Below, in pieces: positions 6,724 to 41,498 of a stretch of 54,062 nucleotides of DNA (position 1 is its first letter; the number at the start of each line of letters is the position of its first letter). The notes under the pieces were generated by a model, which did not search any database, was not told the origin of the DNA, and worked only from the letters and a program-made list of their open reading frames with translations. The stretch comes from Candidatus Eremiobacterota bacterium (GTDB lineage: Bacteria; Vulcanimicrobiota; Vulcanimicrobiia; Vulcanimicrobiales; Vulcanimicrobiaceae), in contig JAFAKB010000092.1 in NCBI GenBank assembly GCA_019235885.1, forward strand, positions 1 through 54,062. The letters run 5' to 3'. The position numbers were made by a program, and so were the translations under genes.

Positions 6724-7248
6724 CTATTCGACGACGAAGGGCAGCGCCGGGCTGAGCGTTCGTTGAACGCGCGGCGCCGTGGCGGTCGCGAGCTGCAGCG
6801 TGTGCGACCCCGGCGCCAGCGCGCCGGTCGCGAGCACCGCCTCGAAGCCCGAGTCGGCCGCGCCCGGCGCGCCGAGCGCCGTCGCGACGTCCGGCCGAGG
6901 CAAGTGATAGCGAGCCTCGCGCCACGGTCCGGCGTCGACCCGGTACACGAGCCGGGCGCCGCTGCGGTGCAGCACCGGGTCGAGCGCAAAGCCGGTCAGC
7001 CGAAGCTGCTCGCCCCGCTCGATCAGAAGCACCTGGCCGATGTAGTCGACGTGCCGCCCGGCGACGTCGACGCCCTCGAGCCGCCAGCTCGTGCGCAGCT
7101 GCTCGTGCTCGGTGCGGGCCGCCAGCGCGATCCAGCGCGCGCCCGCAGTGGCCGGGAGCGGGGCGGGTCGCAGCGCCAGCGCCGCGGCGGCGCAGCCGAC
7201 CGCCCCGGCGACCAGCACCCACGTCACGGCGCCCTCGAAGCGGTTGCT
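6724..7248 (-). CDS. Membrane-anchored single GW-RPDVA-GF module protein
   Basis: 174 residues from GTG 7248 (an ATG at 7293 would add 15). One N-terminal transmembrane helix (about residues 8-27) is followed by an extracytoplasmic region with no known enzyme motif. Residues 86-150 carry a module seen elsewhere in this window: LTGFALDP, then RPDVATALG at 119-127, SGFEAVL, and APGSHTL. The predicted content is beta-rich. It is convergent with the GT-C-like gene ending at 6717 and divergent from the epimerase at 7304. Function is unknown; the repeated placement of this module beside transferase genes suggests an accessory or sugar-binding role, which is inference. Confidence 0.6.
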   Translation of the reverse strand, partial: SNRFEGAVTWVLVAGAVGCAAAALALRPAPLPATAGARWIALAARTEHEQLRTSWRLEGVDVAGRHVDYIGQVLLIERGEQLRLTGFALDPVLHRSGARLVYRVDAGPWREARYHLPRPDVATALGAPGAADSGFEAVLATGALAPGSHTLQLATATAPRVQRTLSPALPFVVE

Positions 7249-7303
7249 CACGCGCCTGCCTACGGGGAGGCGCGCGGCGCTTCCCCCGCGCAAAGCCGGG
7301 TTC

Positions 7304-8374
7304 GTGTACTCCGCGATCCTGGTCGCCGGCGGCGCCGGTTTCGTCGGCTCGTCGCTCGCGCTGCGGCTGCGCGCCGCCTACCCCGAGGCGCGGGTGATCG
7401 CCGCCGACAGCCTCAAGCGCCGCGGCTCGGAGCTGAACCTCGGGCGCCTGGCCGCCGCCGGGATCGAGTTCGTCCACGCTGACGTCCGCCGCCCGGACGA
7501 CCTCGCCTTTCCGCGGCTGCGCTTCGGCTTGATCGTCGACTGCTCGGCGGAGCCGTCGGTCCTGGCCGCGTACGACGCCGGGCCGCGCTACGTCATCGAC
7601 ACCAACGTCACCGGGACGGTCAACCTACTCGAGCTCGCGCGGCGCGACGGGGCCGACGTGGTCTTCCTCTCGACCAGCCGCGTCTACCCCGTCGCGGCGC
7701 TCGACGCGATCCGGCTCGACGAGACGCCGACGCGCTTCGCGCTCGCCGCCGAGCAGCGGCTGCGCGGCGTCGGGCCGGCGGGCATTTCGGAAGACTTCCC
7801 GCTCGAGGGCGTGCGCTCGCTGTACGGCGCGACGAAGCTGGCCTGCGAGCTGCTGCTGGCCGAATATGCCGACATGTACGGGATCCGCACGGTGGTCGAC
7901 CGCTGCGGCGTCGTCACCGGGCCCTGGCAGATGGGGAAGGCCGACCAAGGCATCTTCGCGCTGTGGATGGGCAAGCACTATTTCCGGCGCCCGCTCGCGT
8001 ACATCGGGCACGGCGGAACGGGAAAGCAGGTCCGCGACCTCGTCGCGGTCGACGAGCTGTGCGACCTCGTGCTGCGCCAGCTCGACGCGATCGACGCGCT
8101 TTCGCACCGGGTCTACAACGTCGGCGGCGGACTGGCCTCGAGCCTCTCGCTCGCCGAGACGACGGCGCTGTGCGAGGAGATCACCGGAAACCGGGTGGAG
8201 ATCGTGCGCGTCGCCGAGAACCGTCCCTCCGACGTGCGGCTCTACGTGACCGACAACGCTCGGGTCACCGCCGACACCGGGTGGTCCCCGCAGAAGACGC
8301 CGCGCCGGACGCTGGGCGAGATCTTCGACTGGATCCGCGAGAACGAACGTCTCGTCGCCCCGCTCTGGTCCTGA
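7304..8374 (+). CDS. NAD-dependent sugar-nucleotide epimerase/dehydratase
   Basis: 356 residues from GTG 7304. Rossmann motif [10 protein letters not shown] at the N-terminus, a CSAEPSV segment after strand 4, LSTSRVY, and the catalytic YGATK (YxxxK) show an extended SDR acting on a nucleotide sugar. [12 protein letters not shown] is the usual substrate-domain block. It belongs to the same broad group as the CDP-tyvelose/paratose epimerases and sits 29 bases before such a gene (8404), so the two probably act in sequence on one NDP-sugar. The exact reaction cannot be read from sequence. First gene of a + operon running to 17173. Confidence 0.8.
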
Positions 8375-9496: not shown

Positions 9497-10261
9497 GTGC
9501 TCCTCTCGGTCCTGATCCCCGCGCACAACGAAGAAGGCGCGCTCGCCGAGACGGTCACCGCGCTCGCCGAGCGGCTCACCGGTGCGGCGATCCCGTTCGA
9601 GATCGTCGTCGTCGACGACCACTCCACCGACGGAACCGCCGCCGCGGCCGCGCGCGCCGCCGAACGGATCCCGAGCCTGCGCTGCGTGCCGAACGCGCGC
9701 CGTCCGAAGGGCTTCGGCAACGCGATCAGCACCGGGCTCGAAGAGTTTCGCGGCGAGGCGGTCTGCATCGTGATGGCCGACGCCTCGGACGACCCCGGCG
9801 ACGTGGTGGCCTACTGGCGCGCGATCGAAGCGGGGCACGACTGCGCGTTCGGAACGCGCTTCACGCGCGCGGCGCGCGTCGTCGAGTACCCGCTCCCCAA
9901 GCTGATCCTGAACCGCGCCGCGAACGCGTTCATCGCGCTGCTGTTCGGGATCCGCTACAACGACGTGACGAACGCGTTCAAATGTTACCGGCGCGAGGTG
10001 ATCGCCGGCGTGCAGCCGATCCTCTCGCACCACTTCAACATCACCGTCGAGCTGCCGCTGAAGGCGATCGTGCGCGGTTACTCGTGGACGGTCGTCCCGA
10101 CGAGCTGGTACAACCGCAAGCACGGCGTCTCGAAATTCAAGATCAAGGAGATGGGGAGCCGCTACTTGTTCATCGTGCTGTACGCGCTGATCGAGAAGTG
10201 GCTCTCGCGCGGCGACTACCGGCGCGCGGCGCCCACGCCGGCCGACGCCGTGCAGCGATGA
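9497..10261 (+). CDS. GT2 glycosyltransferase, polyprenyl-phosphate mannosyltransferase type
   Basis: 254 residues from GTG, starting one base after the previous stop. It shows the GT-A layout: SVLIPAHNEEG, VVVDDHSTDGT (nucleotide-binding DD), RPKGFGNAIS, MADASDDP, and a late NRKHGVSKFK basic block. The spacing and the KGFGNAIS segment fit the dolichol/polyprenyl-phosphate sugar synthase group. Such enzymes load undecaprenyl phosphate with one sugar for use by GT-C transferases, which are abundant here. No C-terminal transmembrane pair is evident, so it is likely a peripheral membrane protein. It ends in an ATGA overlap with the next gene. Confidence 0.82.
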   Translation: MLLSVLIPAHNEEGALAETVTALAERLTGAAIPFEIVVVDDHSTDGTAAAAARAAERIPSLRCVPNARRPKGFGNAISTGLEEFRGEAVCIVMADASDDPGDVVAYWRAIEAGHDCAFGTRFTRAARVVEYPLPKLILNRAANAFIALLFGIRYNDVTNAFKCYRREVIAGVQPILSHHFNITVELPLKAIVRGYSWTVVPTSWYNRKHGVSKFKIKEMGSRYLFIVLYALIEKWLSRGDYRRAAPTPADAVQR

Positions 10262-12225
10262 ACGGCGAGCCCGGCGACGAGCTGCGCGCGTACGTTCGGC
10301 GGCTCGAGGCGGAGCGCGACGAGCTGCTCGAACGGCTGGAGAACGTCGATTTGTGGGCCGAGCAGACGCGCGCTTCGGCCGAGGCGGTGCGCCCGCTGCT
10401 GCGCTCGATGCAGGAGAGCAAGTTCTGGAAGGCGCGCAACGCCTGGTTCGCGCTGAAGCACCGCCTCGGCATGCACCCCGACGGCGCGCAACCCCCGGTC
10501 GACCTGATCGTCGCCGACTACGCGCCGCTGCTCTCGAAGCGCTCGGCGTACGAGCGCTGGCTGCGCGCGCACGACCTGCGGCGCAGCGACGAGGAGGTCG
10601 TCCGCCGGCTCGCCGCGCTGCTCCCGCACCGGCCGCTGATCAGCGTGATCGTTCCCACCTACGAGACGCCGGAGCGCTACCTGCGCGCGGCGCTCGACTC
10701 CGTGCTGGAACAGCTGTACGAGAACTGGGAGCTGTGCGTCGCCGACGACGCCTCGCGCGATCCGGCGGTGCGCGCGACGCTGCAGGAGTACGCGGCGCGC
10801 GAGCCGCGGGTGAAGCTCGTGCTGCGCGAGCGGAACGGGCACATCGCGGAGGCCAGCAACAGCGCGCTCGCGCTCGCGAGCGGCGAGTTCGTCGCGCTGC
10901 TCGACCACGACGACGCCCTCACCCGCGACGCGCTCTTCCACGTCGCGCTGCTCGCGAGCGAGCATCCCGAGGCGGACTTCATCTACAGCGACGAGGACAA
11001 GATCGACGACCTTGGCCGCCGCAGCGAGCCATACTTCAAGCCGGACTGGTCGCCGGACTCGTTTCTGGCCCGCATGTACGTCGGTCACCTGGCGGTCTTC
11101 CGGCGCGCGCTCGTCGAGGAGGTGGGCGGGTTCCGGCCGGGCTTCGAAGGGAGCCAGGACTACGATCTCGTCCTGCGCGTGACCGAGCGCACCGACCGCA
11201 TCTTTCACATCCCGCGCGTGCTCTACCACTGGCGGACGCATCCCGAGTCGACCTCCGCCGAGACCGGTTCGAAGACCTACGCGTACGAAGCCGGCCGGCG
11301 CGCGCTCGAAGAGGCCCTCGCGCGGCGCGGCGAGCCCGGTCGCGTGGAGCAACTGCCGGAGCCGGGCAGCTACGTCGTGCGCTACGAGATCAAGGAGCGC
11401 GGCAAGGTGAGCGTGATCGTGCCGACGCGCGACCACGGGGAAGACGTCGAACGCGCGTTGAGCTCGATCTTCGCGCGCGCCTCGTACGAGAACTTCGAGG
11501 TGCTGCTGATCGACAACGGCTCGCGCGACCCGCGCTCGCTGGCGACGTTCGAGCGCTGGGCCGCGGCGGAGCCGCGCGTGCGGCTTTTGCGCTACGACGT
11601 GCCGTTCAACTTCGCGCGGATCAACAACCATGGCGCACGACTCTCCGCCGGAACGTATCTGCTGTTCCTGAACAACGACACCGAGGTGCTGGCCGAGGAC
11701 TGGATGGAGGGGATGGTCGAGCAGGCGCAGCGCCCCAGCATTGGCGCGGTCGGCGCGAAGCTGCTCTATCCCGACGGCACGGTGCAGCATGCCGGGGTCG
11801 TCACCGGGATCGGCGGCGTCGCGGGGCACGCGCACAAGTACGCCGACGCGGCGTCCGGGGGGTACTTCAACACGCTGCGCACGACGAACAACTACTCGGC
11901 GGTGACCGCGGCCTGCATGATGGTGCGGCGCGAAGCGTACGAGCGAGCGGGCGGTTTCGACGAAGCGCTCGCGGTCGCGTTCAACGACGTGGACTTCTGT
12001 CTCAAGCTGCGCCGGCTCGGGCTGTACAACGTCTACCTCGCGCACGTCGAGCTGCTGCACCACGAGTCGAAGAGCCGCGGCTACGAGGACACCGCCGAAA
12101 AGCGCGCGCGTTTCGAGGCCGAGCGGCTGCTCATGATGCGGCGCTGGCGCACGGCGGAAGCGAGCGATCCCCACTACAGTCCGCATCTCTCGGTCACCGC
12201 GGAAGACTACTCGCTGCGCGCGTGA
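10258..12225 (+). CDS. Tandem double GT2 glycosyltransferase with N-terminal coiled coil
   Basis: 655 residues. Residues 1-60 are a charged helix likely to coil. A first GT-A domain starts near residue 128 (ISVIVPTYETPERYL) with ADDASRDP and the DxD-like DHDDA at 216-220. A second starts near 383 (VSVIVPTRDHGEDV) with NNDTE at 472-476 and a late NDVDFCLKLRRLG acceptor/base block. Two GT2 domains in tandem are typical of O-antigen and rhamnan chain-extending enzymes, suggesting alternating addition of two sugars in the cytoplasm. The start ATG overlaps the previous stop. A gap of 70 bases precedes the exporter genes. Confidence 0.88.
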   Translation: MNGEPGDELRAYVRRLEAERDELLERLENVDLWAEQTRASAEAVRPLLRSMQESKFWKARNAWFALKHRLGMHPDGAQPPVDLIVADYAPLLSKRSAYERWLRAHDLRRSDEEVVRRLAALLPHRPLISVIVPTYETPERYLRAALDSVLEQLYENWELCVADDASRDPAVRATLQEYAAREPRVKLVLRERNGHIAEASNSALALASGEFVALLDHDDALTRDALFHVALLASEHPEADFIYSDEDKIDDLGRRSEPYFKPDWSPDSFLARMYVGHLAVFRRALVEEVGGFRPGFEGSQDYDLVLRVTERTDRIFHIPRVLYHWRTHPESTSAETGSKTYAYEAGRRALEEALARRGEPGRVEQLPEPGSYVVRYEIKERGKVSVIVPTRDHGEDVERALSSIFARASYENFEVLLIDNGSRDPRSLATFERWAAAEPRVRLLRYDVPFNFARINNHGARLSAGTYLLFLNNDTEVLAEDWMEGMVEQAQRPSIGAVGAKLLYPDGTVQHAGVVTGIGGVAGHAHKYADAASGGYFNTLRTTNNYSAVTAACMMVRREAYERAGGFDEALAVAFNDVDFCLKLRRLGLYNVYLAHVELLHHESKSRGYEDTAEKRARFEAERLLMMRRWRTAEASDPHYSPHLSVTAEDYSLRA

Positions 12226-12295: not shown

Positions 12296-13105
12296 ATGGT
12301 GACATCATCCGTCTACGCGCCTCACGGAGAGGTGCGCTCCCGCCGATTCGTCGACTTGATTCGCGTCACCGCGATTCGAGCGCTGATGGTGCGCTATCGC
12401 GGCACCGCGTTCGGCGTGCTGTGGTCGTTCGCCAACCCGGTGCTGATGACGCTGATCTACACGGCGATCTTCGGGACCGCGTTCAAGCGCTACTACGACG
12501 GCTCGTTGACGCGCTACCTCGTCTCCGCGTTCGTCGGGCTGGTCGTCGTCTCGTTCTTCCTGGCGACGACGAACGACGCGCTGCCGTCGGTCGTCAACGC
12601 CGGCTCGCTGATGAACAAGATCGCGATCCCGCCGATCGTCTTCCCGATCGCCTCGGTCGCCGCGAACCTCTTCCAGCAGCTCGTCACGACGTTCCCGATC
12701 CTGTTCGTGCTCTCGATCGTGCTGACGCGGGATCCGGTGCGCGTCGCGCTCGTCCCCGTCGTGCTGGCCGCGGTCGTGGTGCTTTCGGCCGGGTTCGCGC
12801 TGGGATTGGCGGCGCTGTTCGTCTTCTTTCGCGATCTGCCGAACCTGTGGCAGGTCGCGGGCTTCATCCTCTGGCTGAGCAGCCCGCTGTTCTATCCGGT
12901 TCAGCTCGTTCCGCCGCAAGCGCGGACGTGGTATTCGCTGAACCCGATCGGTGAGGCGATCGCCGCGGCGCGCGAGGTCACGATCGCGCGCGGACCGCTC
13001 GATCCGTACCCGGTCCTGTTCACGATCGCCGCCGCGCTGGTCGCGCTCGCGCTGGGAGCGTGGCTGTTCCGCGCGACGCGCGACGATTTCATGGACCTGC
13101 TCTGA
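12296..13105 (+). CDS. wzm: ABC exporter permease for polysaccharide (Wzm type)
   Basis: 269 residues from ATG with six hydrophobic segments. MVRYRGTAFGVLWSFANPVL near the N-terminus and the SPLFYPVQLVP and YSLNPIGEAI blocks late in the protein are the standard features of ABC-2-type O-antigen/teichoic-acid permeases (Wzm, TagG, RfbA families). Two copies would form the channel through which an undecaprenyl-linked polymer is driven across the inner membrane by the ATPase encoded next. The stop TGA overlaps the ATG of that gene by one base, so they are co-translated. Confidence 0.92.
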   Translation: MVTSSVYAPHGEVRSRRFVDLIRVTAIRALMVRYRGTAFGVLWSFANPVLMTLIYTAIFGTAFKRYYDGSLTRYLVSAFVGLVVVSFFLATTNDALPSVVNAGSLMNKIAIPPIVFPIASVAANLFQQLVTTFPILFVLSIVLTRDPVRVALVPVVLAAVVVLSAGFALGLAALFVFFRDLPNLWQVAGFILWLSSPLFYPVQLVPPQARTWYSLNPIGEAIAAAREVTIARGPLDPYPVLFTIAAALVALALGAWLFRATRDDFMDLL

Positions 13106-14088
13106 TGTCCGCCGCGATCGAGCTGCACGACGTCACCCTCGTCCGCCGCACGCAGGAAGAGCTTCACTACGACTTCAAGCGGACGGTGCTCGACCTCGTG
13201 CGCGGTCGCCGGCGCCGCCCGCGCCGGCGGACGGTGATCGACAACCTCACCGCGTCGATCGGCCAAGGCGTCAAGCTCGCCGTGATCGGCGCGAACGGCA
13301 GCGGAAAGTCGACCGTGCTGAAGCTGATCGCCGGCGTGCTGCGCCCGACGCGCGGTTCGGTCGAGGTGCGCGGCACCGTCGCGCCGCTGATCGAGCTCGG
13401 CGTGGGTTTCGAGCCGGAGCTCACGCTGATCGACAACGTGATCTTCTACGGAATCCTGCTGGGACACGAGGAGGCGACGGTCCGCGCGCACGCGGAGGCG
13501 ATCCTCGAGTTCGCCGAGCTGACCGAGATGCGCGACGAGCCGACCAAGACGCTTTCCTCGGGAATGTCGGCGCGGCTGGGCTTCGCGATCGCGACCGAGT
13601 GGCGCCCCGACATCCTGCTGCTCGACGAGGTGCTCTCGGTCGGCGACGAGCGCTTCCGCCGCAAGTGCGCCGCGCGGCTGGACCGCTTTTGGGACGCGCA
13701 CTCGACGATCGTCGTCGTCTCGCACGACCTCGACTACGTCGTGCGCACCTGCGAGCGCGTGATCTGGGTCGACCACGGCGTCGTGCGGTTCGACGGCGCG
13801 GTCGCGGAAGGCGTCGAGCAGTACCTGAAAACGGTGCCGTTCGGCCCCGGCTACACGCGCGGCGAGGAGCTGCTCGAGCTCGCGCGCGAGAACCAGCGCG
13901 GCGAGATCCTCGTCCGCGGCCTCTCGCCAACCGAGCAGGGACGGAAGGTGTACCTGATCCGCGACGGGATGCGGCACTGGGTGACGCACCCGAGCTGGTA
14001 CGTGAAGAGCGGGTACGCGTGGGAGAACGTGCTGCACGTCGACGACGCCGCGATCCTGGAGATTCCGGAAGGCGATTACCTGACGTGA
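13105..14088 (+). CDS. wzt: ABC exporter ATPase for polysaccharide (Wzt type) with unusual C-terminal module
   Basis: 327 residues. Walker A GANGSGKST at 62-70, signature LSSGMSARL at 150-158, Walker B ILLLDEV with the catalytic E175, and switch His in SHD at 207 are all present, so the ATPase should be active. The insertion of basic residues at 33-42 is unusual. After the ATPase (about residue 245), O9a-type Wzt proteins carry a carbohydrate-binding domain. Here there is only about 80 residues, ending in VYLIRDGMRHWV and YAWENVLHV (282-312), a small module also known from the tails of cell-surface and envelope proteins. It may recognise a polymer end, which is inference. Overlaps the next gene by four bases. 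Confidence 0.9.
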   Translation: MSAAIELHDVTLVRRTQEELHYDFKRTVLDLVRGRRRRPRRRTVIDNLTASIGQGVKLAVIGANGSGKSTVLKLIAGVLRPTRGSVEVRGTVAPLIELGVGFEPELTLIDNVIFYGILLGHEEATVRAHAEAILEFAELTEMRDEPTKTLSSGMSARLGFAIATEWRPDILLLDEVLSVGDERFRRKCAARLDRFWDAHSTIVVVSHDLDYVVRTCERVIWVDHGVVRFDGAVAEGVEQYLKTVPFGPGYTRGEELLELARENQRGEILVRGLSPTEQGRKVYLIRDGMRHWVTHPSWYVKSGYAWENVLHVDDAAILEIPEGDYLT

Positions 14089-15206
14089 GCGCCGAGGCGG
14101 AGACGACGATCGCCGAGATCGTCGGCTCGGGCCGGCGCGTATTGCACGCCGGCTCCGAGGCGGCGAGCATCGTGACGCTGCTGCGCGAGGCCGGCAACCC
14201 GGTGATCTCGCTCGATCCCGCCGAGCTGGAAAGCGAAGCCCGGCGTGCGCGCGAAGCGTACGACGCGGTGGTCTTCGCCGGCGCGCTCGAATCGCTGCGC
14301 GATCCCGCGCGCGCGCTGACCGCGTGCCGCCGGCTGCTGCGCGAGGGCGGCGTCGTCGTCGCCGCGCTGCGCAACGTCGCGCACGGCGCGGTGCGGCTGG
14401 CGCTGTTGCACGGCCGCTTCGACTACCGCGCGCTGGGGATTGCCGAGGCGCCGCCGGTGCGGTTCTACACCCGCGCGTCGGCGCTGCGGCTGTTCGCGGA
14501 AAGCGGGCTCGCGACGACGCGCGTCGAGCGCACGACGGCGCCGGTGTTCGGCGACTCGCCGCTCGTCCCGCGCGTGCGGCGCAACGACTTCGATCCGGCG
14601 CTCGTCGCCGAGGTGCTCGGCGACGAAGATGCCGAGACGCTGCAGTTCGTGATCGCCGCCGAACCGCTCGGCGACGCCGAGGCGCTCGCGCTGCTGCGCG
14701 CCGAGGTGGCGCGGCTCGAGCGCGGGTTGGAGACGCCGAGCGCCGAGTGCGGTGAGGAAATCGATCCCGCGCACGCCGCGAGCGAGCGTCTCGCCGAGCT
14801 CGAGCTGGTGCGCGCGGAGCGCGACGCGCTCGCGGAGCGCGTCGCGATGCTCGACGATCTGCTCGCCGTCGAGCGCGCGACGCGCCTCGACGTCGAGGAC
14901 GCGTGCGAGCGCATCGAGCGCGTCGCGCGCAGCCGCTTCGAGCTGGCGCGCGAGGACGAGCTGGCGCGGCTGCGCGCGCGCTCCACCGCGGTCGAGCTCG
15001 AGCTGAAGCTCGCCCGCCAAGCCGCGCGCCGCGTCGAATCGCCCGCGCGCCGGCCGCCGGCGCGCGCGCCGCTCTCGGCCGACGCCGTGCGCGGCCTGCT
15101 CGGCGGCCGGCGGACGCTGGAGGTCTTGCCGCCGCCGGCCGCGGGCGAGAGCCCGCTGCGTTCGCGCTTGCGCCCGCTGCGCCGCCTGTTCCGGTTTCCA
15201 CGATGA
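14085..15206 (+). CDS. Methyltransferase-like domain with C-terminal coiled coil (cassette A)
   Basis: 373 residues from GTG, overlapping the previous stop. Residues about 1-210 follow the class I SAM methyltransferase fold of the MetW-like glycan group: ESLRDPARAL, LLREGGVVVAALRNVAHGAV, FYTRASALRLFAESG. However, motif I, normally D/E-x-G-x-G, reads VLHAGSEAAS, and the usual LDxTHxRFFT block is eroded to APPVRFYT. SAM binding is therefore doubtful. Residues about 220-330 are rich in Glu, Arg, Leu and Ala in heptads, a coiled coil. The longer relative is at 45935. It may be a scaffold for the transferase that follows; a divergent active methyltransferase is the alternative. Confidence 0.7.
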   Translation: MSAEAETTIAEIVGSGRRVLHAGSEAASIVTLLREAGNPVISLDPAELESEARRAREAYDAVVFAGALESLRDPARALTACRRLLREGGVVVAALRNVAHGAVRLALLHGRFDYRALGIAEAPPVRFYTRASALRLFAESGLATTRVERTTAPVFGDSPLVPRVRRNDFDPALVAEVLGDEDAETLQFVIAAEPLGDAEALALLRAEVARLERGLETPSAECGEEIDPAHAASERLAELELVRAERDALAERVAMLDDLLAVERATRLDVEDACERIERVARSRFELAREDELARLRARSTAVELELKLARQAARRVESPARRPPARAPLSADAVRGLLGGRRTLEVLPPPAAGESPLRSRLRPLRRLFRFPR

Positions 15207-17173
15207 TCGTGCGGCGCTTTCGGCACGCGGAGCAGCCGCGCGCGAGCGTCATCGTCCTCGTGTACGCGCAAGCAGAGTATCTCGACGCGGCGCTGCGCTC
15301 GCTGCTCGAGACCACCGATCCGGCCTTTCCCTACGAAGTCATTCTGGTTTTGAACGGCGCCGCGCCACACGTTGCGGCGGCGGCGCGGCGCGCGGCGCGC
15401 GGCGCGCGGATCGTCGAGGCGCCGGCGAACTTGGGCTTCGGCGGCGGCAGTAACTTCGGCGCCGCGCACGCGCGCGCGCCGTACTTGGTCTTTCTCAACG
15501 ACGACGTCGTCGTGCGGCCCGGCTGGCTGGAAGAGCTGGTGGTGACCGCGGACGCGCGGCCCGACGCCGGCGCGGTCGGGAGCCGCATCCTGTTCGCCGG
15601 CGGCGAGCAGGTTCAGGAAGCCGGTTCGGTGATCTTCGCGGACGGCTCGACCGCGCCGCTCGGACGCGGCTTGCCGGCCGATTCGCCGCGCGCGCGCGCG
15701 GTGCGCGAGGTCGACTACTGCTCGGCCTGCTCGCTGCTGGTGCGGCGCGCGGCGTTCGAGCAGGCCGGCGGGTTCGAGCGCCGCTACTTTCCGGCGTACT
15801 ACGAAGACGTCGATCTGGCGCTGAAGCTGCGCGAGCTCGGCTGGACGATCCTCTACCAGCCCGCCTCCGAGTTGCTGCACGCCGAATCGGCGAGCACGAC
15901 GAGCGATTTCAAGGCGTATTTGTTTCGGCGCAACCATCGCACGCTCCGGCGCACCTGGCAACGGACGCTCGGCGAATTCGAACCGTCGCGCGGCGGCGAT
16001 CCGAGCGCGCTCGCCGCCGCCGTGCGCCGCGCGCGGCGCGCGCGTGCCGAGCTGCTCGTCGTCGACGACCGTGTCCCCGATGCGGGCCTGGGCTCGGGCT
16101 ACGGCCGCCTCGCGGAGCTGTTTCGCGATCTGGCCGGGGGCCGCTATGCGATCACGTTCTCTGCGACCGCCGGTCCGCCGGGCGACGGCGCGGCGGTCGG
16201 CGCCTGGGGCGTCGACGTCGCCGACGGCGACCTCGGCGCGCTGATCCGCGATCCCGCGACGCGCATCGACGTCGCGGTGATCAGCCGTCCGCACAACTGG
16301 GAGCGCTGCGCCGCGACGATCCGCAAGCACCATCCGGACGCTGCGCTGATCTACGATGCCGAAGCGCTCTTCCACCGCCGCATTCGCCTGCAGCTCGAGC
16401 TGGAAGCCGATCCGGCACGCCGTGATGCGCTGCAGCGCGAGCTCGAGATCGCGTACGAGCTCGAGGGCCGCATCGCGCGGCTCGCCGATCACGTCGTCTG
16501 CGTCTCCGCCGACGAAGAGCGCGCGCTCCGCGCGTTCGCGCCGCGTACGCCGATCGACTTGCTGCTGGCGACGACGGAGGGCGTCGTTCCGTCCCGGCGG
16601 GCTTTCGCGCAACGGCGCCCGCAGGCGCTCTTCGTCGCCGGCTGGATGGCGGGGCCGGGCTCGCCGAACGCCGACGGCTTGGAGTGGTTCGGCGCCGAGG
16701 TGATGCCGCTGGTGACGGCGCGCCTGCCGGATGCGTGCGCGATCATCACCGGCGCGAACCCGCCGCCGCAGGTGCTGCGGTTGCGTTCACCCGCGATCCG
16801 GTTCACCGGATTCGTCGATGATCTGCAGGAGCTCTACGCGAGCGCGCGGATCGCGATCGCGCCGCTGCGCTTCGGCGCCGGCGTGAAGATCAAGACGATC
16901 GAGGCGGTGCAGCACGGCGTCCCGGTGGTCGCGACGCCGACCGGCGTCGAAGGAATCGTGCTCGACGAGCCCGGCGGGGTCGTCGTCACGGAGGATGCGG
17001 CGCGCTTCGCCGACGCGGTCGTCGCGCTGCTCGGCGATGAGAACGCGTGGTCGAACGCGCAGCGCGCGGCGTTGCGGCAAGCCGAGCGGTGGCGGACCGC
17101 GCCGCGCCGCACCTGGCGCGACGTCGTCGAGGACGTCCTCGCGCGCCGCTCAGCGGCGCGACATCTCGCGTAG
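15203..17173 (+). CDS. GT2-GT4 fusion glycosyltransferase (cassette A)
   Basis: 656 residues starting at ATG 15203, inside an ATGA overlap. Residues 1-270 are GT2: ASVIVLVYAQAEYL, NLGFGGGSN, DxD-like NDD at 99-101, and the EDVDLALKLRELG block near 208. From about 283 a second domain of GT-B/GT4 type begins (VVDDRVPDAGLGSGYGR) and includes YDAEALFHRR, GWMAGPGSPN and GAGVKIKTIEAVQHG (near 559), the donor-nucleotide site. Two transferases in one chain suggest consecutive addition of two sugars. A close relative of the same length lies at 47539. The last 24 bases overlap the convergent coiled-coil gene. Confidence 0.87.
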   Translation: MIVRRFRHAEQPRASVIVLVYAQAEYLDAALRSLLETTDPAFPYEVILVLNGAAPHVAAAARRAARGARIVEAPANLGFGGGSNFGAAHARAPYLVFLNDDVVVRPGWLEELVVTADARPDAGAVGSRILFAGGEQVQEAGSVIFADGSTAPLGRGLPADSPRARAVREVDYCSACSLLVRRAAFEQAGGFERRYFPAYYEDVDLALKLRELGWTILYQPASELLHAESASTTSDFKAYLFRRNHRTLRRTWQRTLGEFEPSRGGDPSALAAAVRRARRARAELLVVDDRVPDAGLGSGYGRLAELFRDLAGGRYAITFSATAGPPGDGAAVGAWGVDVADGDLGALIRDPATRIDVAVISRPHNWERCAATIRKHHPDAALIYDAEALFHRRIRLQLELEADPARRDALQRELEIAYELEGRIARLADHVVCVSADEERALRAFAPRTPIDLLLATTEGVVPSRRAFAQRRPQALFVAGWMAGPGSPNADGLEWFGAEVMPLVTARLPDACAIITGANPPPQVLRLRSPAIRFTGFVDDLQELYASARIAIAPLRFGAGVKIKTIEAVQHGVPVVATPTGVEGIVLDEPGGVVVTEDAARFADAVVALLGDENAWSNAQRAALRQAERWRTAPRRTWRDVVEDVLARRSAARHLA

Positions 17174-17482
17174 CGCGCGCAGCGCCTGCGCGCGCTCGCG
17201 GTCTTTCAGCCGGCAGACGTGGGTGACCGCGTCGCTGATGCGGCGCCGCACCCTCTCTTCGTCGACGGCGGCGCGCACGTACGCCGAGGTCGCGATCTGC
17301 GCGAGCCGCTCGCGCGCGACCTCGCCCGCGCGCAGCGCGCGGTGCTCGCGCTCTTCGGCTTCGGCGAGCCGCGCGCGCAAGTCGGCGACGTAGCCGTCGC
17401 GCACCGAGAGCTCGCTGCGCAGCGCGTCGACTTCCCGCTGCAAACGGTTCAGCTCCGCGGTTCGCTCGCGCGATTCGTCCAT
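17150..17482 (-). CDS. Small coiled-coil protein (cassette A)
   Basis: 110 residues, almost wholly charged heptads. The first 75 residues form a coiled coil containing SVRDGYVADLRARL, followed by a basic helix (AVTHVCRLKDRERAQALRAL). No signal peptide, membrane segment or enzyme motif. The protein at 49475 shares the RDGYVADL block and the C-terminal ALRxM ending, which supports this as a real gene despite being short and overlapping the 3' end of the + strand transferase by 24 bases. It lies downstream of the double-module gene on the same strand. Function unknown; pairing with the coiled coil of the 14085 protein is a reasonable guess. Confidence 0.65.
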   Translation of the reverse strand: MDESRERTAELNRLQREVDALRSELSVRDGYVADLRARLAEAEEREHRALRAGEVARERLAQIATSAYVRAAVDEERVRRRISDAVTHVCRLKDRERAQALRALREMSRR

Positions 17483-17531
17483 CGCGGGCAGGTTCCGAAC
17501 CGCCGCGCCCGAGTCCCGCCCGGCGGCGCGC

Positions 17532-18284
17532 TCAGCGCCGCGCGAGCAGCGTGAGCGGCGGACCGGCGGGGCGCACCGTCACGCCGTCGGAGCCGAGCAC
17601 GACGATGCGCAGCGGCGTCCCGTCGCGCGCGACGTACGTCCCCGGGAACGAGACGCTGAAGCCGCAGTACACGTGGTGCTCGCCGAGCTCCTCGGCGACG
17701 TCCTGGCGCTCGAAGCCGTACGCCGCTTCGACGACGTGCTCCCCGACCAGCGCGAAGGCGGCGACGGCCGGCGTTTGCGTGACGGTGTCGGCGGCCCAGC
17801 CGTCGATGCGGATCACCGCGTCGCGCGGAACGTGGAGCGTCGAGCCTTGAATCGGCTCGGTGCGGCCGCTCTCGTCGGTCCAGGTGTCGATGCAGCCGCC
17901 GGCGGGCTCGACGTCGGCCAGCGGAACGGCCGCGTTCAGCCGGAAGCGCGCGCGCGCCAGCTCACCGGCCCGATCGCCCGCGACGACGAGCGCCAGCGCG
18001 TGCTCGCCTGCGGCGAGATCGACGGTCGCGAGCGACGCGCTGAAGCCGGAACCGGCCGCCGACGGATCGCCGAGCGCGCCGGCGACGTCCGGGCGCGGGA
18101 TGCTGCGCTCGATCGCGTGCTCGGGGCCGCCGTCGATGGTGAGCGCGAAGCTCGTCGCGTTGCCGGGATGATGAGCCCACCCCCGGACGACGAGCACGTC
18201 GCCGACGCAAGCGGTCGTTCCGGGCGGCGCGTCGGAGAGCGGCAGGAGTTGGATCTCGTCGATCGCTCCGGTAGCGGGTCGCAT
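17532..18284 (-). CDS. Cytoplasmic protein with two GW-RPDVA-GF modules (cassette A)
   Basis: 250 residues from ATG 18284. The frame is open further upstream, but the relative at 49888 starts at the same point (GAID/GALD in residues 4-9). Two similar halves are visible. Half 1: GW at 35-36, RPDVAGALG at 64-72, SGF at 79-81, AAGEHALAL. Half 2: GW at 162-163, RQDVAEELG at 193-201, CGF at 207-209, PGTYV. No signal peptide or membrane helix. The composition looks like beta-sandwich repeats. Modules of this GW...RPDVA type are, as I recall, common in bacterial surface and glycan proteins but lack a defined role. It is divergent from the lipoprotein gene at 18375. Confidence 0.65.
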   Translation of the reverse strand: MRPATGAIDEIQLLPLSDAPPGTTACVGDVLVVRGWAHHPGNATSFALTIDGGPEHAIERSIPRPDVAGALGDPSAAGSGFSASLATVDLAAGEHALALVVAGDRAGELARARFRLNAAVPLADVEPAGGCIDTWTDESGRTEPIQGSTLHVPRDAVIRIDGWAADTVTQTPAVAAFALVGEHVVEAAYGFERQDVAEELGEHHVYCGFSVSFPGTYVARDGTPLRIVVLGSDGVTVRPAGPPLTLLARR

Positions 18285-18809: not shown

Positions 18810-19886
18810 TCAGTCCGCGACGCCGGCGCGGGCGTTCTCGGCCAGAAACTTCTCGAAGTAGACTTCGTTGCAGACGTCCTCTTCGATGTCCGCGACGATC
18901 GGCTCGGCGCTGAGCGCCGCGACGGCGCGTCCGTCGTTCGGCGCGGCGTACGCGCGGAAGAACGAGTGCATCACGCGGTCGACCGCCTCCGCGCTGACGG
19001 TGCGGCGATCGGCCTCGAAGCCGTCGTTGCCGTCGAACCCGACGACGATCTCGTACGACGGAAAGTAGTCGACGAAGTCGTAGCGCGCGCGCATCTCCTC
19101 GGCGGCGACGCGCAAGACCGCTTTGGACCAGAACGTCGACTGCGCGACGTGCCGCGGCTCCATCGTCGCCGCGAGCGGAACCGGCGAGACGGTGAGGATC
19201 ACGCGCAGGTTCCGGTTCAGCGCGCGCGCGATCTGCAGAAACTCGTCGAGATACTGCACGTTCTCGGCGACCGAGAGGTTCCGGAAGCGATAGCGCTCCG
19301 CATCGAACGTCCCCACCCCGGCACCCGGGCAGAGCGGGAGCGCGGCCTCGTCCGCGGTGCAGACCCACGTTTCGGTGAGGCCGAGCGTGAAGACGAACAC
19401 TTCGCTTTCCGCGAGCATGCGGCGCACCGCGGCAAGGTGCTGCTTGCGGTCGGCCTCGAGGGCGGCGACCGAGGCGAAGCCGCCCGGCTCGACGCGCGGC
19501 CGGAACGGGTCGGCGAAGCGGTCCTTCAGCGGCCACGGCGGCTCGGACGGCTGGAACGCGCCGGTCGCGCGGCGCGCGAGCTGCACCAGCTGCAGCGTCG
19601 TGTAGATGTCGCCGAAGCGCGCCGAGTACGCGCCGTAGTTACGCTTGCGGCGCTGCTTGGCCGACTCCCACACCGGCCCGGGCTCGGCGACGAAGTACGT
19701 GTAGCCGGAGGCGCGCAGGCGCTCCGCGATGCGCTGCGCGAAGCAGCTCCCCGCCGACGCGATGCGCGTCGTGCGGTCCACCGTGAAGCGGCCGGCGTGC
19801 TGCGGGTCGACGAAACCGGCGGAGCGGTCTGCGAGCGCGCGCGACCAGATCTGAAAATCGGGCAAGCCGGCATAGGGAAACTTCAC
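18810..19886 (-). CDS. GSCFA-domain protein (SGNH-like)
   Basis: 358 residues from GTG in a GTGA overlap with the upstream SGNH gene. The family-defining GSCFA lies at 46-50, followed by an aromatic-rich YGAYSARFGDIYTT block and FTLGLTETW, VSPVPL and FWSKAVLR segments found throughout the GSCFA family (Pfam GSCFA). These proteins resemble SGNH hydrolases, with the GSCFA serine in the nucleophile region, and are often found in polysaccharide loci. Removal or transfer of O-acyl groups on the glycan is likely but not proven. Last gene of the - strand operon that starts at 28653 or later. Confidence 0.85.
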   Translation of the reverse strand: MKFPYAGLPDFQIWSRALADRSAGFVDPQHAGRFTVDRTTRIASAGSCFAQRIAERLRASGYTYFVAEPGPVWESAKQRRKRNYGAYSARFGDIYTTLQLVQLARRATGAFQPSEPPWPLKDRFADPFRPRVEPGGFASVAALEADRKQHLAAVRRMLAESEVFVFTLGLTETWVCTADEAALPLCPGAGVGTFDAERYRFRNLSVAENVQYLDEFLQIARALNRNLRVILTVSPVPLAATMEPRHVAQSTFWSKAVLRVAAEEMRARYDFVDYFPSYEIVVGFDGNDGFEADRRTVSAEAVDRVMHSFFRAYAAPNDGRAVAALSAEPIVADIEEDVCNEVYFEKFLAENARAGVAD

Positions 19887-20701
19887 GGCAGAGCAGCCTC
19901 CATGGCGATGGAGTGGTATTGGCGCAAGATCGGTCGCGCGCCCGCGTGACCGACGTGTACCCCGTCGAGCAGCAGCCCGGCCTTGGCGACGTTGCGCTCG
20001 GTCATCTCATTCCAGGTGTCGATGAAGCGCATGTTCGCTTCCTCGCAAAAACGGCGCAGCGTCGCGTTGATCGCCAGGTGCACCGCATAGCGCGTGCGCG
20101 CGCGCGACGTCACGCCGGTCAGGCGGGCATACTCGTCGTCGTCGCGGGTCGGCGGCGGAAGGCTCGAGACGGCCAGCCGCGGGATGCCGAAATCACGCAG
20201 GCCGACCAGCATGCGGAAGAGCTGCCCCATCTGCTCGACGATCCGCTCGTCGAGATCGGCGGCCGGCAAGATGCGCGGCGCCTCGGCGGGCGGCAGCAGC
20301 GAGAGGTCCGCGTCGAACGAGAGCAGCGGGTCGGCGTCGAGCGGGATCGAGGCGATGATCTCGCGCGCATCGATCTCGCCGACGGTGAACAACACGTAGG
20401 TATGGTCGGCGATCCAGCTTGGGGTGAAGAAGGAGTCGCCGAGGCGCACCGTCAGCAGCTCGCCGGTATACCCGTGCGGGAGCAGTCGCAGCATGTGAAA
20501 CGCCGCGAGCGCTGCGACGATCCCGGGATGAAACTCGCCTTCCGGGCTCAAGGACGACTTCGCGGAGAGCCCCTGCACGCAATAGGCCTCGCTGACCGCC
20601 AGCGGTTCGCCGGTCGTCTCGTCGCGCAACACCAGCGCGTTCAAGGGGCCGCTGTGGCTGTCGCCGATCACGAAGAGGGGGCGCACGTAGGTGTCGGCCA
20701 T
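19883..20701 (-). CDS. SGNH/GDSL-like hydrolase
   Basis: 272 residues from ATG. Block I is GDSHS at 13-17 with the likely nucleophile S15, and the C-terminal DGVH at 246-249 supplies the Asp-His pair of the SGNH triad. No signal peptide is visible, so action in the cytoplasm is most likely. It is translationally coupled to the GSCFA gene, which suggests two related acyl-modifying proteins working on the same glycan. Acetyl esterase and acetyltransferase roles cannot be told apart here. Confidence 0.72.
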   Translation of the reverse strand: MADTYVRPLFVIGDSHSGPLNALVLRDETTGEPLAVSEAYCVQGLSAKSSLSPEGEFHPGIVAALAAFHMLRLLPHGYTGELLTVRLGDSFFTPSWIADHTYVLFTVGEIDAREIIASIPLDADPLLSFDADLSLLPPAEAPRILPAADLDERIVEQMGQLFRMLVGLRDFGIPRLAVSSLPPPTRDDDEYARLTGVTSRARTRYAVHLAINATLRRFCEEANMRFIDTWNEMTERNVAKAGLLLDGVHVGHAGARPILRQYHSIAMEAALP

Positions 20702-25520: not shown

Positions 25521-27065
25521 TTACTTGAGCAGCGAGTCGATGAACTTGTACGTCGCAACGCGGTCGACCGCACTGCGGTTGCCGACGATCTGGGCGGCTT
25601 GCGCGCCGACGACGTTGGCAACGAAGACGATCATCTTGCCGGGGAGTCCCGCCGCGGCCATCGGCGCGGTCCACGAGAGCACGGCGTCGCCGGTGCCGAC
25701 GCGGTCGGTCACGCTGCGCGCGAAGGCCGGCCCGCTCGACCAGCCTTCGCCGGTGCGGTAGAACAGCGCGCCGCGCTTGCCGCGCGTGACCAGCGTGTTC
25801 TGCGAGCGCAGGCGCTCGGCGACCGCCGTGATCAGTGGCTCGATCTCGCCGATCCGCGCGCGCGAGTCGGAGCGCAGCTCGCCCTCGTTCGTGCAGACGA
25901 AGTCCGCGCGCGAGTAGCGCGAGAGCGTGTGGTAGCCGATGTTGGCGGCATTCTGCTGCGTGTTGACCGCCAGGAACTTCGCGCTGCGCTGGACCGTCTC
26001 GATCGCCTGCGGGGTGAAGATGCCGTGGCCGAAGTCCGCCACGACGACGAGGTCGTAGCCCGCGGCGATCGACTCCAGGTGCGCGCGGAAGCGCGCCGCG
26101 TCCTCGTCGCACAGGAACTCGTCGTTGAAGATGTACACCTCGAACAGCTTCGAGAGGAGATAGCTCTCGACGTAGCGCCGCTTGACGATCGTCGGCGACT
26201 CCCGCTTGTAGAAGAAGGTCGGCCGGACGTTCGGGGCGAGCCGCTCGCGCACGAAGTCCTCGCGCGCATCGCGCGCGCCGAGGAACGTGACGAGGCTGAC
26301 GTCGTCGACGAAGGCGGCGAGGTGGTTCGCGATCGCCAGCACGCCGCCGGCGAACTGCTCCTCGGAGGCGTAGCGCATCGCGAGGACCGGCTCTTTCGAC
26401 GACTTCCCCATCTGGTCGACGTAGACGTACTCGTCGACGATCGCCTCGCCGACGACGAGGACGCGCATCGTGCGCAGGCTGTCCAGTGCGGCGTGGACCT
26501 GCGCAGGCGCGTACGTCGCGCGCAGCTCGGCCAGGTAGTCGTTCACCTCTTGCGAGTGCGAGGAGAGGTGGCGGTTGATGATCGCCGAGCTCGAGAAAGT
26601 GAGGTCCTCGGTGTAGTAGACCGTCCCGCCGCCGGCCTGGACCGCGGCCTCTTCCTCGCCGATCTTCCCGGTCACGTCGGCCTGATGGTCCTTGTAGTCG
26701 GGGCCCTTGGCGTAGACGTCGGGCCGCACGGCTTTGAGCAGCTCGACCGCGGTCGGCGCGTGGTTGACCGCGACGTGGTCGACGATTTCCAACGCGGCGA
26801 GCATCTTCGCGCGGTAGGCCTCGGTGAAGGCCGGCCGGTTCGGCCCCTTGTTCACGTACGCGTCGGCGGTGATGGTGACGACCAGCGCGTCGCCTTGCTT
26901 GCGCGCCTCCTCGAAGTGCAGCAGATGGCCGTAGTGGAGCAGATCGAAGACGCCGTGGCAGAGCACGACCTTCTTGCCGGCCGCCTTCATCGCGGCGACG
27001 CTCTCCGCCAACTGGTCGACGGAGACGATCTTCTCGACCGCCTGCGAGGGATCCGATACGGTCAT
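25521..27065 (-). CDS. Nucleotidyltransferase-PfkB sugar kinase fusion (HldE-like, domains swapped)
   Basis: 514 residues from ATG 27065 in an ATGA overlap. Residues 30-160 are a cytidylyltransferase-like nucleotidyltransferase with HGVFDLLHYGH at 37-47 (catalytic HxGH). From about 198 a PfkB/ribokinase fold follows: MRVLVVGEAIVDEY, FAGGVLAIANHL and the catalytic DRVGTGDA near 458. E. coli HldE has the same two activities, heptose-7-P kinase and heptose-1-P adenylyltransferase, but with the kinase first. With the GmhA-like isomerase two genes upstream, this probably makes an NDP-heptose. The nucleotide (ATP, CTP or GTP) is unknown, and a GmhB phosphatase is not seen in the window. Confidence 0.85.
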   Translation of the reverse strand: MTVSDPSQAVEKIVSVDQLAESVAAMKAAGKKVVLCHGVFDLLHYGHLLHFEEARKQGDALVVTITADAYVNKGPNRPAFTEAYRAKMLAALEIVDHVAVNHAPTAVELLKAVRPDVYAKGPDYKDHQADVTGKIGEEEAAVQAGGGTVYYTEDLTFSSSAIINRHLSSHSQEVNDYLAELRATYAPAQVHAALDSLRTMRVLVVGEAIVDEYVYVDQMGKSSKEPVLAMRYASEEQFAGGVLAIANHLAAFVDDVSLVTFLGARDAREDFVRERLAPNVRPTFFYKRESPTIVKRRYVESYLLSKLFEVYIFNDEFLCDEDAARFRAHLESIAAGYDLVVVADFGHGIFTPQAIETVQRSAKFLAVNTQQNAANIGYHTLSRYSRADFVCTNEGELRSDSRARIGEIEPLITAVAERLRSQNTLVTRGKRGALFYRTGEGWSSGPAFARSVTDRVGTGDAVLSWTAPMAAAGLPGKMIVFVANVVGAQAAQIVGNRSAVDRVATYKFIDSLLK

Positions 27066-28072
27066 GCTTTCGACGTCTCTCCGAGCTGCTCGAACCACAC
27101 CTTGGTCGCGTCCGCGATCGACTTCGCGTCCCACAGCGGCGCGCCGCGCCAGTCCTCGATGTGCGCCAGCATGCGCCGGACGCCTTCTGCGAACGGGATC
27201 TTCGCGCGCCAGCCGAGCAGCCGCTCTGCTTTCGAGGTGTCAGCGAACGTGCAGTCCGGCTCCCCGGGGCGCTTCGGGATGTGCTCGACCTCGCCGCCGA
27301 GCAGGCGGCACAGCTCGTTCACGCTGTACGTCCCGCCCGAGCCGAGGTTCAGGATCTCCTCGCGCAGGCCGCTGTTCGCCGCCGTCACGACGCCGTCGAC
27401 GATGTCGGTGACGTAGGTGAAGTCGCGCGTCTGGGTGCCGTCGCCGACGACCGTGAACGGCCGGCCTGCGAGTTTCTGCGCCAGAAAGACGCCGAAGACC
27501 GCACCGTACGTTCCCGAGGTGCGCGCGCGCGGACCGAAGACGTTGAAGAAGCGCAGCGAGACCGTCGGGATGTCGTACACCGCGCCCCAGTGCAGCGCGA
27601 TCCGCTCGCCGAGATACTTCGTCAGCGCGTACGGGTACTGCGGGCGGATCGGTGCGTCTTCCGGGGTGGGGTAGACCTCCGGTATTCCGTAGCAGGACGA
27701 CGACGCCGCATAGACGACGCGCTCCGCCCGGGCCGCACGCGCCGCCTCCATCACGTTGAACGTACCGGTGACGTTGGTCGTGAAGTAGTCCCCCGGCCGT
27801 TCGATGGACGGCACGATGTCGGCGAGCGCGGCGAGATGGTAGACGACGCGCGCGCCTTCGAACAGCGGCGCCAAAGCGTCCGCATCGCGGATATCCGCGC
27901 GGTGGAACCTGCAGCGCCCGGTTGCGAGCGCGTCGGCGAGGTTCGCCTCGCGCCCGACGGCCAGGTTGTCGAGCGCGACGACTTCGTGGCCGTCGGCCAG
28001 CAACCGCTCGACCAGATGGCTCCCGATGAATCCCGCGCCGCCGGTGACGAGTACCTTGCGGGCTTCGCTCAT
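27062..28072 (-). CDS. NAD-dependent NDP-hexose epimerase (GalE/Gne-like)
   Basis: 336 residues from ATG in an ATGA overlap with the isomerase. VLVTGGAGFIGSHL, HLAALADIVPSIERP, AASSSCYGIPE and catalytic YALTK are present, then NVFGPRA and VGDGTQTRDFTYVTD. This is the classical UDP-glucose/UDP-GlcNAc 4-epimerase-like scaffold also used by UDP-xylose synthases. Placement inside the isomerase/kinase pair hints that the substrate could be an NDP-heptose. Substrate specificity is not readable. Confidence 0.82.
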   Translation of the reverse strand: MSEARKVLVTGGAGFIGSHLVERLLADGHEVVALDNLAVGREANLADALATGRCRFHRADIRDADALAPLFEGARVVYHLAALADIVPSIERPGDYFTTNVTGTFNVMEAARAARAERVVYAASSSCYGIPEVYPTPEDAPIRPQYPYALTKYLGERIALHWGAVYDIPTVSLRFFNVFGPRARTSGTYGAVFGVFLAQKLAGRPFTVVGDGTQTRDFTYVTDIVDGVVTAANSGLREEILNLGSGGTYSVNELCRLLGGEVEHIPKRPGEPDCTFADTSKAERLLGWRAKIPFAEGVRRMLAHIEDWRGAPLWDAKSIADATKVWFEQLGETSKA

Positions 28073-40113: not shown

Positions 40114-40962
40114 TTAGCGCAGGTTGCGCATCGGCGGCCCGCCGACCGGGGCGCGCTGGACCGCAGTGTCGAGCTGGACCGAGCGGATGAAGGAGAGGAT
40201 CGCCGCGCCGAGCCCGACCAGCCACACCAGCGCGGAGACGGCCCAGCCGATCACCGGCACGATCTCGGCCGCCGAGACGACGACCAGCCCGAGCACCAGC
40301 GCGAGCAGCGGCGAGGGCGTCGAAGCCGGCAGCACCAGCTCGCACAGCCGGCGCCCGACCAGCAGCGCGAGCGCGCCGGTCCCGATCCAGACGCCGGCGA
40401 ACAGCGCCGCGATCTCCAGGAAGACGAGCGGGATCCCGATGATGCTGATCAGCAACAGGATCGCGATCGGGACGACGGCGACGACCGCGATCGTCCCGGT
40501 CAGCGCGGAGAGCGCGGGATGCTTCTCGACGCGGTCGAGCGCGACGCGCATCCGCAGCGGGAAGAGCAGGAACATCAGCACGACGACCGCGCTCCCGGCG
40601 AGCTTCACCAGCAGGCGGTGGTCCTGCTCGGCGAGCGCGCCGACGCCGCTCCCGAACGCCCACGGCAAGAATGCGCGCGTCCCTTCGTCGGCGCCGCTGT
40701 AGACGTGTCCGTTGACCTGTCCGTTGTCGACGATCGTGCAGTGGCCGAACGGCGCGTTGCAGTCGCCGCGGACGATCCCCGCGATCTTCGCATCGCCGAA
40801 GACGACGTTGACGTCGCCGTCGACGACCTGGTCGGCGGGGACGTACACGTCGTGCAGCGAGGTCAGGCTGCCGTCGCGCGAGCGCGCCTCGGCCGGCAGC
40901 GTCTGCACGATTCCGAGGAGCGCGAAGAACGCGACGGCGAGCGTGAGGAAGCGCGCGTTCAC
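40114..40962 (-). CDS. Exported membrane protein with polymer-forming-like N-terminal region
   Basis: 282 residues from GTG in a GTGA overlap with the anti-sigma gene. A signal peptide (about 1-26) is followed by a short repetitive beta stretch (VVDGDVNVVFGDAKIAGIV, NGQVNGHVYSGAD) like the bactofilin/polymer-forming proteins, then four hydrophobic segments from about residue 120 to 265. Such proteins often sit beside ECF sigma/anti-sigma pairs and may act in envelope stress sensing or repair. Co-transcription with the sigma operon is clear from the overlap. Function inferred from context. Confidence 0.65.
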   Translation of the reverse strand: MNARFLTLAVAFFALLGIVQTLPAEARSRDGSLTSLHDVYVPADQVVDGDVNVVFGDAKIAGIVRGDCNAPFGHCTIVDNGQVNGHVYSGADEGTRAFLPWAFGSGVGALAEQDHRLLVKLAGSAVVVLMFLLFPLRMRVALDRVEKHPALSALTGTIAVVAVVPIAILLLISIIGIPLVFLEIAALFAGVWIGTGALALLVGRRLCELVLPASTPSPLLALVLGLVVVSAAEIVPVIGWAVSALVWLVGLGAAILSFIRSVQLDTAVQRAPVGGPPMRNLR

Positions 40963-41498
40963 GAGCGGATGCGCTCCGCCAAGCGCGGCCGCACTACGGT
41001 GAAGCCGACGATGAGCGCGAGCGCGACCGCGATGTCGAGCACGATCGCGCCGCCGAACAGCGCGCCGAGCGAACCGAAGTCGCCCAGCACGCGCGCGCCG
41101 GCGTGACCGAAGGTGCCGAAGGTGTGGAAGAGCTGCGCGCTCGCGTCGAGCGCCGTCTCGCCGAACGCGCGCATCGCCGGACCGGCGAGCAGGAAGCTCG
41201 CGCCGATCAGCAGCCAGGCCGCGACCAGATACGAGACGAGATAAGCGTAGACCGGCGCGCTCGAGACGTGCGGGCGCGGCAGCGTGCGGATCTCGGCCAT
41301 CGTCGCGAAGGTGAAGTTCGCCGGCAGCTCGACGTGGCGCGGCGCGATCATCAGGGCGTCGACGACGCGCAGCTCGTCGAGCACGCCCTTGCAGCGCCCG
41401 CAGGCGCCCAAGTGGTTGAGCAGCCGCACGCGCTGCGCCGGGAGCAGCGTGTCGTCGAGATACGCCTCGAACAGCGCCTCAGACGAGCTGCAGCTCAC
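40959..41498 (-). CDS. Anti-sigma factor with zinc-finger (ZAS-like) domain
   Basis: 179 residues from GTG 41498, overlapping the sigma gene by 20 bases. Residues 1-45 form an anti-sigma domain with H29-x3-C33-x2-C36 (NHLGACGRCKG). Two hydrophobic segments (about 84-106 and 145-170) anchor the protein in the membrane, so the finger faces the cytoplasm to bind the ECF sigma factor. Coupled translation matches the expected one-to-one ratio. Signal sensed is unknown; the downstream membrane protein may take part. Confidence 0.85.
   Translation of the reverse strand: MSCSSSEALFEAYLDDTLLPAQRVRLLNHLGACGRCKGVLDELRVVDALMIAPRHVELPANFTFATMAEIRTLPRPHVSSAPVYAYLVSYLVAAWLLIGASFLLAGPAMRAFGETALDASAQLFHTFGTFGHAGARVLGDFGSLGALFGGAIVLDIAVALALIVGFTVVRPRLAERIRS

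Follow-up and report, generated by a model that had tools for sequence, protein, structure and literature searches.

Coiled-coil terminators have been described as a hallmark of ABC-dependent O-polysaccharide assembly (PMC11231755). In such assembly, the terminating enzyme is placed at the distal end of a coiled-coil protein, and the same protein brings in the polymerase close to the membrane; the length of the coil sets the length of the chain, and export is limited to terminated chains, which are read by a domain of Wzt (PMC11231755, PMC3482155). In K. pneumoniae O7, the single protein ORF6 unites a methyltransferase-kinase and a coil with a pair of GT2 modules, and its model includes an additional CBM-like domain (PMC11231755). 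The cultured Eremiobacterota species has a Gram-negative envelope with LPS (PMC9758169); the literature searched yielded no paper on O-antigen from the phylum.

We analyzed a stretch of 54,062 nucleotides (contig C92, hereafter the window) from the genome of a soil bacterium of the phylum Eremiobacterota, a Candidatus Eremiobacterota genome of 4.5 Mb in 105 contigs. The closest known design to what we describe is WbdD/WbdA of E. coli O9a and K. pneumoniae O3/O5, which comprises a coiled-coil terminator and ruler, a recruited dual-glycosyltransferase polymerase, and the exporter Wzm/Wzt. The glycosyltransferase modules of WbdA are mannosyl GT4 modules.

A four-gene cassette present twice in the window

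An earlier note on this DNA had described a glycan cassette present twice with conserved strand switches, and both copies were verified. The four genes are referred to as MT (methyltransferase-coil), GT (glycosyltransferase), CC (coiled-coil), and DM (double-module).

MT copy A: 14085-15206, + strand; GTG start; degenerate Methyltransf_23 domain, proline-free coil-like stretch of ~91 residues, basic C-terminal tail
GT copy A: 15203-17173, + strand; GT2-GT4, a two-domain glycosyltransferase (Pfam)
CC copy A: 17150-17482, - strand; small coiled-coil protein, convergent with GT
DM copy A: 17532-18284, - strand; tandem Ig-like beta-sandwich protein, without a transmembrane segment (hydropathy)
MT copy B: 45935-47542, + strand; degenerate Methyltransf_23 domain, proline-free coil-like stretch of ~223 residues, basic tail
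GT copy B: 47539-49551, + strand; GT2-GT4, a two-domain glycosyltransferase
CC copy B: 49475-49891, - strand; single long helix by prediction, convergent with GT, its start overlapping the DM stop
DM copy B: 49888-50628, - strand; tandem Ig-like protein

Gene order and orientation are identical in the two copies, with MT and GT on the + strand followed by CC and DM on the - strand, and the stop ends of the convergent GT and CC genes overlap in both, as the earlier note had reported. This overlap is 24 nt long in A and 77 nt long in B. The MT and GT genes overlap by 4 nt in A and B alike; CC and DM do so in B, also by 4 nt, but have a gap of 49 nt between them in A. The further claim that all four families match pairwise was borne out by pairwise BLASTP, which gave 45% identity over the N-terminal 223 aa for MT (2e-48), 61% over 646 aa for GT (E 0), 53% over 104 aa for CC (1e-24), and 38% over 246 aa for DM (4e-44). 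With E-values from 1e-24 to 0, the likeness of all four pairs is far above chance.

Occurrence in related genomes and ancestry of the two copies

We searched 198 related genomes, 11 of them from the host genus, for the four families. The complete set was found in three of the 198 (the window genome, G001, and G004), all from one genus, and the convergent GT/CC array is present in G001 and G004 as well, with overlaps of 80 and 68 nt. A collection-wide scan with the DM pair retrieved one locus, that of G001 (PLJL01000004, Candidatus Eremiobacterota palsa_1490). In G004 the MT gene is split, running off the end of contig C74 while its tail opens C131, so we infer the MT join there. G001, and G001 only, has an extra class I methyltransferase gene with a normal motif between CC and DM (L041:3189-3977, + strand). 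CC is present in 3 of the 11 genus genomes; since several of those lacking it are 95-99% complete, its absence from them is real and the cassette accessory.

The two copies in the window are not each other's closest relatives. For GT, identity is 70% between A and G001 and 72% between B and G004, compared with 61% between A and B and 59-61% between lineages overall. MT is 52% identical between A and G001 versus 38% between A and B, and CC and DM group in the same way as GT. For GT and for the MT domain outside motif I alike, A groups in trees with G001 and B groups with G004; a joining of A with B is rejected by the AU test (p 5.6e-54 for GT and, more weakly, p 0.02 for MT). A recent duplication within the genome, which we also considered, is ruled out by the pairing of all comparable genes as A-G001 and B-G004 and by this test. 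A and B therefore represent two old lineages of the cassette, found together in the window genome alone, which either predate the divergence of the genomes or have moved between them. Because the grouping is the same for all genes, the set has been passed down unshuffled through deep divergence.

The methyltransferase-coil protein

Like other Methyltransf_23 (PF13489) proteins of glycan loci, both window MTs match this Pfam family above the curated cut-off of 27, with 31.1 and 51.4 bits; they differ from such proteins by the absence of motif I and by an added long coil-like stretch and basic tail. Motif I reads VLDVGC in most MT relatives and is intact in G001 (VLDVGCGPG) and G004 (VLDAGCGPG). 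In A it is replaced by VLHAGSEAA and in B by VLAVGLRND, and ~20 residues behind it are missing in both, so that the MT head, previously called degenerate, is indeed so in both copies while its orthologues in G001 and G004 retain the motif. The acidic residue of the next strand after motif I is kept in A and B. At E 1e-25 the window genome yielded no further MT family member, and the nearest solved structure of the MT profile is 3cc8.

Motif I has also been lost in three other MT relatives (G091 C95, L109; G075 C48, L113; and G075 C23, L094), whose sequences lie on long branches and are of unsure placement; G075 C78 has an intact motif I. A single ancestral loss shared by A and B was weighed and is disfavored by the trees and by the intact G001 and G004. 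With A and B in separate clades, each alongside an intact relative, the AdoMet motif was most simply lost independently in MT A and MT B.

Behind the head, the cassette members have proline-free, charged, heptad-like stretches of ~91 to >300 residues, judged as coil by proxies (absence of proline, composition, and heptad signal). With ~91 (A), 223 (B), and >300 residues (G001), they would measure roughly 14, 33, and 49 nm, respectively, if fully helical at 0.15 nm per residue. Basic C-terminal tails occur in most MT-coils, with a net charge of +4 to +7 in the cassette members. No kinase domain was matched by Pfam in MT A or MT B.

The loss of motif I in both copies and the shortening behind it could also be read as decay. 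The MT heads would then be degenerating relics, the coils would remain only because little time has passed since the loss, and CC and DM would travel as passengers in a glycan island spread by horizontal exchange. MT A has a long branch (0.63, versus 0.14 for G001), and its fast evolution fits decay as well as it fits a new role; the patchy distribution of the cassette within the genus and the gene that G001 tolerates between CC and DM would likewise be expected of an island of passengers. Nevertheless, the reading frames of MT A and MT B are full length and uninterrupted, the coil-like region, the basic tail, and what is left of the head are recognizable, and beyond motif I the two MT domains still share 45% identity. 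Other genera also have MT-coils lacking motif I, with coils that are long and open, and the pN/pS of CC is below 1 in every comparison. We consider decay unlikely on these grounds, though it is the alternative that survives best.

The CC and DM proteins and the tightness of linkage

CC is the least well-defined of the four genes. Among the four copies, the annotated frame has the lowest pN/pS of the six frames in 6 of 6 comparisons, with one antisense frame close. The possibility that CC is a spurious antisense frame is disfavored by these values, even with one antisense frame nearly as low. For CC B, AlphaFold, given four sequences, predicts one helix, 117 residues long (21-137), with a mean pLDDT of 88.7 and a pTM of 0.49.

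The AlphaFold model of DM A comprises two beta-sandwich modules (pLDDT 91, pTM 0.69). Comparison of this fold using Foldseek and VIA-align returned generic Ig-like and filamin-like sandwiches with no clear winner (best Z 8.7) and thus no named fold for DM; the Wzt carbohydrate-binding domain was absent among the matches listed, which does not speak against a likeness to it. Neither Pfam (E 0.1) nor NCBIfam (0.01) gave a match for DM, and its profile retrieved nothing convincing from PDB sequences. Many single-module relatives of DM carry an N-terminal transmembrane segment by hydropathy and double-module ones are mostly without it, so the cassette DM is probably cytoplasmic. A DM-like single module behind a predicted transmembrane segment is encoded in the same glycan locus at 6727-7377 (- strand).

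The four families differ in how closely they keep to the cassette. Across the 198 genomes, CC was found in the four cassette copies plus one marginal match in a distant genome, and weak matches to a more distant CC, sought beside the nearest GT relatives (G075 and G018), were not found. DM, in contrast, has matches in 21 of the 198 genomes, usually several per glycan locus, and its profile gave 64 module matches in the loci compared. GT2-GT4 fusions occur in 19 of the genomes searched. An MT-coil gene adjoins GT2-GT4 in G016, G019, G034, G075, G080, and G091 in addition to the cassettes, mostly in divergent orientation, and in several other genera the two are adjacent without CC or DM; in G088 they lie 20 kb apart. 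Because GT2-GT4 is found without an MT gene in G002, G009, and G018, the pairing is not obligatory. MT and GT thus recur as partners, CC keeps to the cassette, and DM is a widespread component that the cassette has taken up. The earlier proposal that the four families work as a linked unit stands insofar as the set recurs in separate genomes; it is weakened by the restriction to one genus, by CC alone being strictly tied to the cassette, and by the interrupted CC-DM pair of G001.

A less probable alternative than decay is that the cassette is a mosaic, in which unrelated MT-GT and DM-CC operons are chance neighbors that moved together and the convergent overlap is meaningless. Single DM modules all over glycan loci, MT-GT pairs lacking the other two genes, and the confinement of all cassette copies to one genus agree with such an origin. 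Against it, CC lies only beside this GT, in 4 of 4 copies seen, and all genes group as A-G001 and B-G004, as in a set inherited unshuffled while GT diverged to 59-61% between lineages. We regard chance association as rather improbable.

The exporter and the surrounding glycan locus

Copy A is preceded by exporter genes, and copy B by genes for a dTDP-sugar:

9982-12225, + strand; protein with two GT2 domains, 5' of the exporter genes
12296-13105, + strand; Wzm-like membrane subunit of the ABC-2 type, 5' of copy A (Pfam ABC2_membrane, 3.2e-11)
13060-14088, + strand; Wzt-like ATPase subunit (Pfam ABC_tran, 1.7e-19), overlapping MT A by 4 nt
42223-45935, + strand; dTDP-sugar genes upstream of copy B, encoding a dehydratase, nucleotidyltransferase, RmlD-like reductase, and epimerase (Pfam)

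The Wzm-like protein has NCBIfam matches to KpsM and Wzm below cut-off, and the best NCBIfam match of the Wzt-like protein, likewise below cut-off, is a galactan exporter Wzt/RfbE. The locus thus holds the Wzm/Wzt exporter genes by which ABC-transporter-dependent O-polysaccharide assembly is recognized. A Wzt homologue lies on the contig of MT and/or GT2-GT4 in 10 of 10 other judgeable genomes (G001, G004, G016, G018, G019, G028, G034, G075, G080, and G091), adjacent in several of them; in the window genome there is one Wzt of this kind in addition to one distant ABC match. A two-GT2 protein also precedes MT in G001.

No Wzt_C carbohydrate-binding domain was matched by Pfam on the 342-aa Wzt at E 0.001. 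Its C-terminal tail of ~85 residues (KVYLIRDGMRHWVTHPSWYVKSGYAWENV...) is without a Pfam match; this tail aligns throughout in G001, G004, and G028, and the Wzt of G034, G080, and G088 stops at about residue 259. Since the Wzt proteins of G001 and G004, where MT is intact, align over the full 342 aa, the absence of the domain is not attributable to the loss of motif I.

Other genes of the window include an HldE-like fusion of a PfkB kinase and a cytidylyltransferase (25521-27134, - strand), a bifunctional gene that points to the heptose of LPS. An ECF-type sigma factor and a zinc-finger anti-sigma-like gene (40959-42135, - strand) lie between the halves of the glycan locus, and a protein with several ricin-type lectin repeats (976-2874, + strand) is encoded at its edge. 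Beside copy A, a GSCFA-family protein (18810-19886, - strand) is followed by a GDSL-like one (19883-20701); both are possible glycan esterases.

Comparison with described systems

The cassette MT resembles WbdD in its N-terminal methyltransferase fold, in a C-terminal stretch of variable length that is coil-like by proxies, and in its basic tail, which could correspond to the membrane-associated amphipathic helix by which WbdD recruits the polymerase. As in the WbdD/WbdA systems, a separate two-domain glycosyltransferase is encoded beside it and Wzm/Wzt are in the locus. Unlike WbdD, the window MTs lack the AdoMet motif and a kinase domain of the O9a/O3 type and have no detected sequence link to WbdD, which was not within the best 60 of 172 matches of the MT profile to PDB. 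The GT is a GT2-GT4 protein and not a set of mannosyl GT4 modules as in WbdA, no carbohydrate-binding domain was detected on Wzt, and the CC and DM genes are extra. With K. pneumoniae O7 ORF6 the cassette shares a methyltransferase head, a probable coil, and glycosyltransferase modules in one assembly unit, as well as rml genes in the locus. ORF6, however, is a single polypeptide with active termination, and the cassette has separate proteins and a degenerate head.

The intact-looking catalytic motif of the MT family in G001, G004, and most other genera, together with the acidic residue kept in A and B, might suggest a true WbdD-like terminator system whose MT head methylates by an unusual AdoMet pocket or serves another step, an idea that we find the least convincing of the alternatives given that both copies have other residues in place of the D-x-G-C/x-G motif I and lack ~20 residues behind it, and that no Wzt carbohydrate-binding domain was detected that would read a methyl cap.

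The earlier note had called the cassette its best candidate for an undescribed system. This was overstated, as a coiled-coil terminator and ruler with a dual-glycosyltransferase polymerase and Wzm/Wzt has already been described (PMC11231755, PMC3482155). What has yet to be described is CC, DM, and the recurrent loss of the AdoMet motif.

Proposed working of the cassette

We lean towards reading the cassette as the length-control and polymerization unit of a surface glycan that depends on an ABC exporter, in which the MT-coil, instead of capping chains, acts as a scaffold or ruler. The glycan is probably LPS O-antigen-like. Judging from its domains, GT2-GT4 would add sugars to a lipid-linked chain at the membrane. 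By analogy with WbdD, the MT-coil would sit near the membrane via its basic tail and hold the transferase by its rod. Because the AdoMet motif is lost from both MT heads in this genome, chain termination by methylation has probably ceased here. From its predicted fold and its position, we would guess that CC forms a second rod, paired either with the MT coil or with GT, and, on the same footing, that DM is a chain binder or a brace of the complex. The two copies, with unequal coil lengths and one linked exporter to share, might yield chains of two kinds or lengths.

A scaffold or ruler without capping is the most economical account of a locus in which no AdoMet motif, kinase, or Wzt carbohydrate-binding domain was detected. 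The scaffold that organizes or tunes a transferase, suggested when the cassette was first noticed, is accordingly the job that we find most plausible from the domains and the likeness to WbdD. Several of the observations above count against this reading: the carbohydrate-binding domain that was not detected on Wzt is a usual partner of terminated chains, WbdD was absent from the best 60 PDB matches of the MT profile, GT2-GT4 occurs in some genomes without MT, and the fast evolution of MT A fits decay equally well. A more specific and decidedly speculative version, which we would not expect to hold, is that a terminator has turned into a catalytically dead ruler whose scaffold geometry sets chain length, with CC as a partner helix, a soluble Ig-like DM in place of the Wzt checkpoint, and two rulers serving one exporter.

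Length control of surface polysaccharides is understood in few systems, mostly from enterobacteria, in which an active terminator sits on a coiled-coil ruler. The cassette offers a putative ruler whose head appears to have shed its cofactor motif on at least two separate occasions, with the motif retained in close relatives, which would let measuring and capping be separated. It also gives first leads on two nameless protein families, CC, which is tied to the cassette, and DM, which is spread through the glycan loci of Eremiobacterota.
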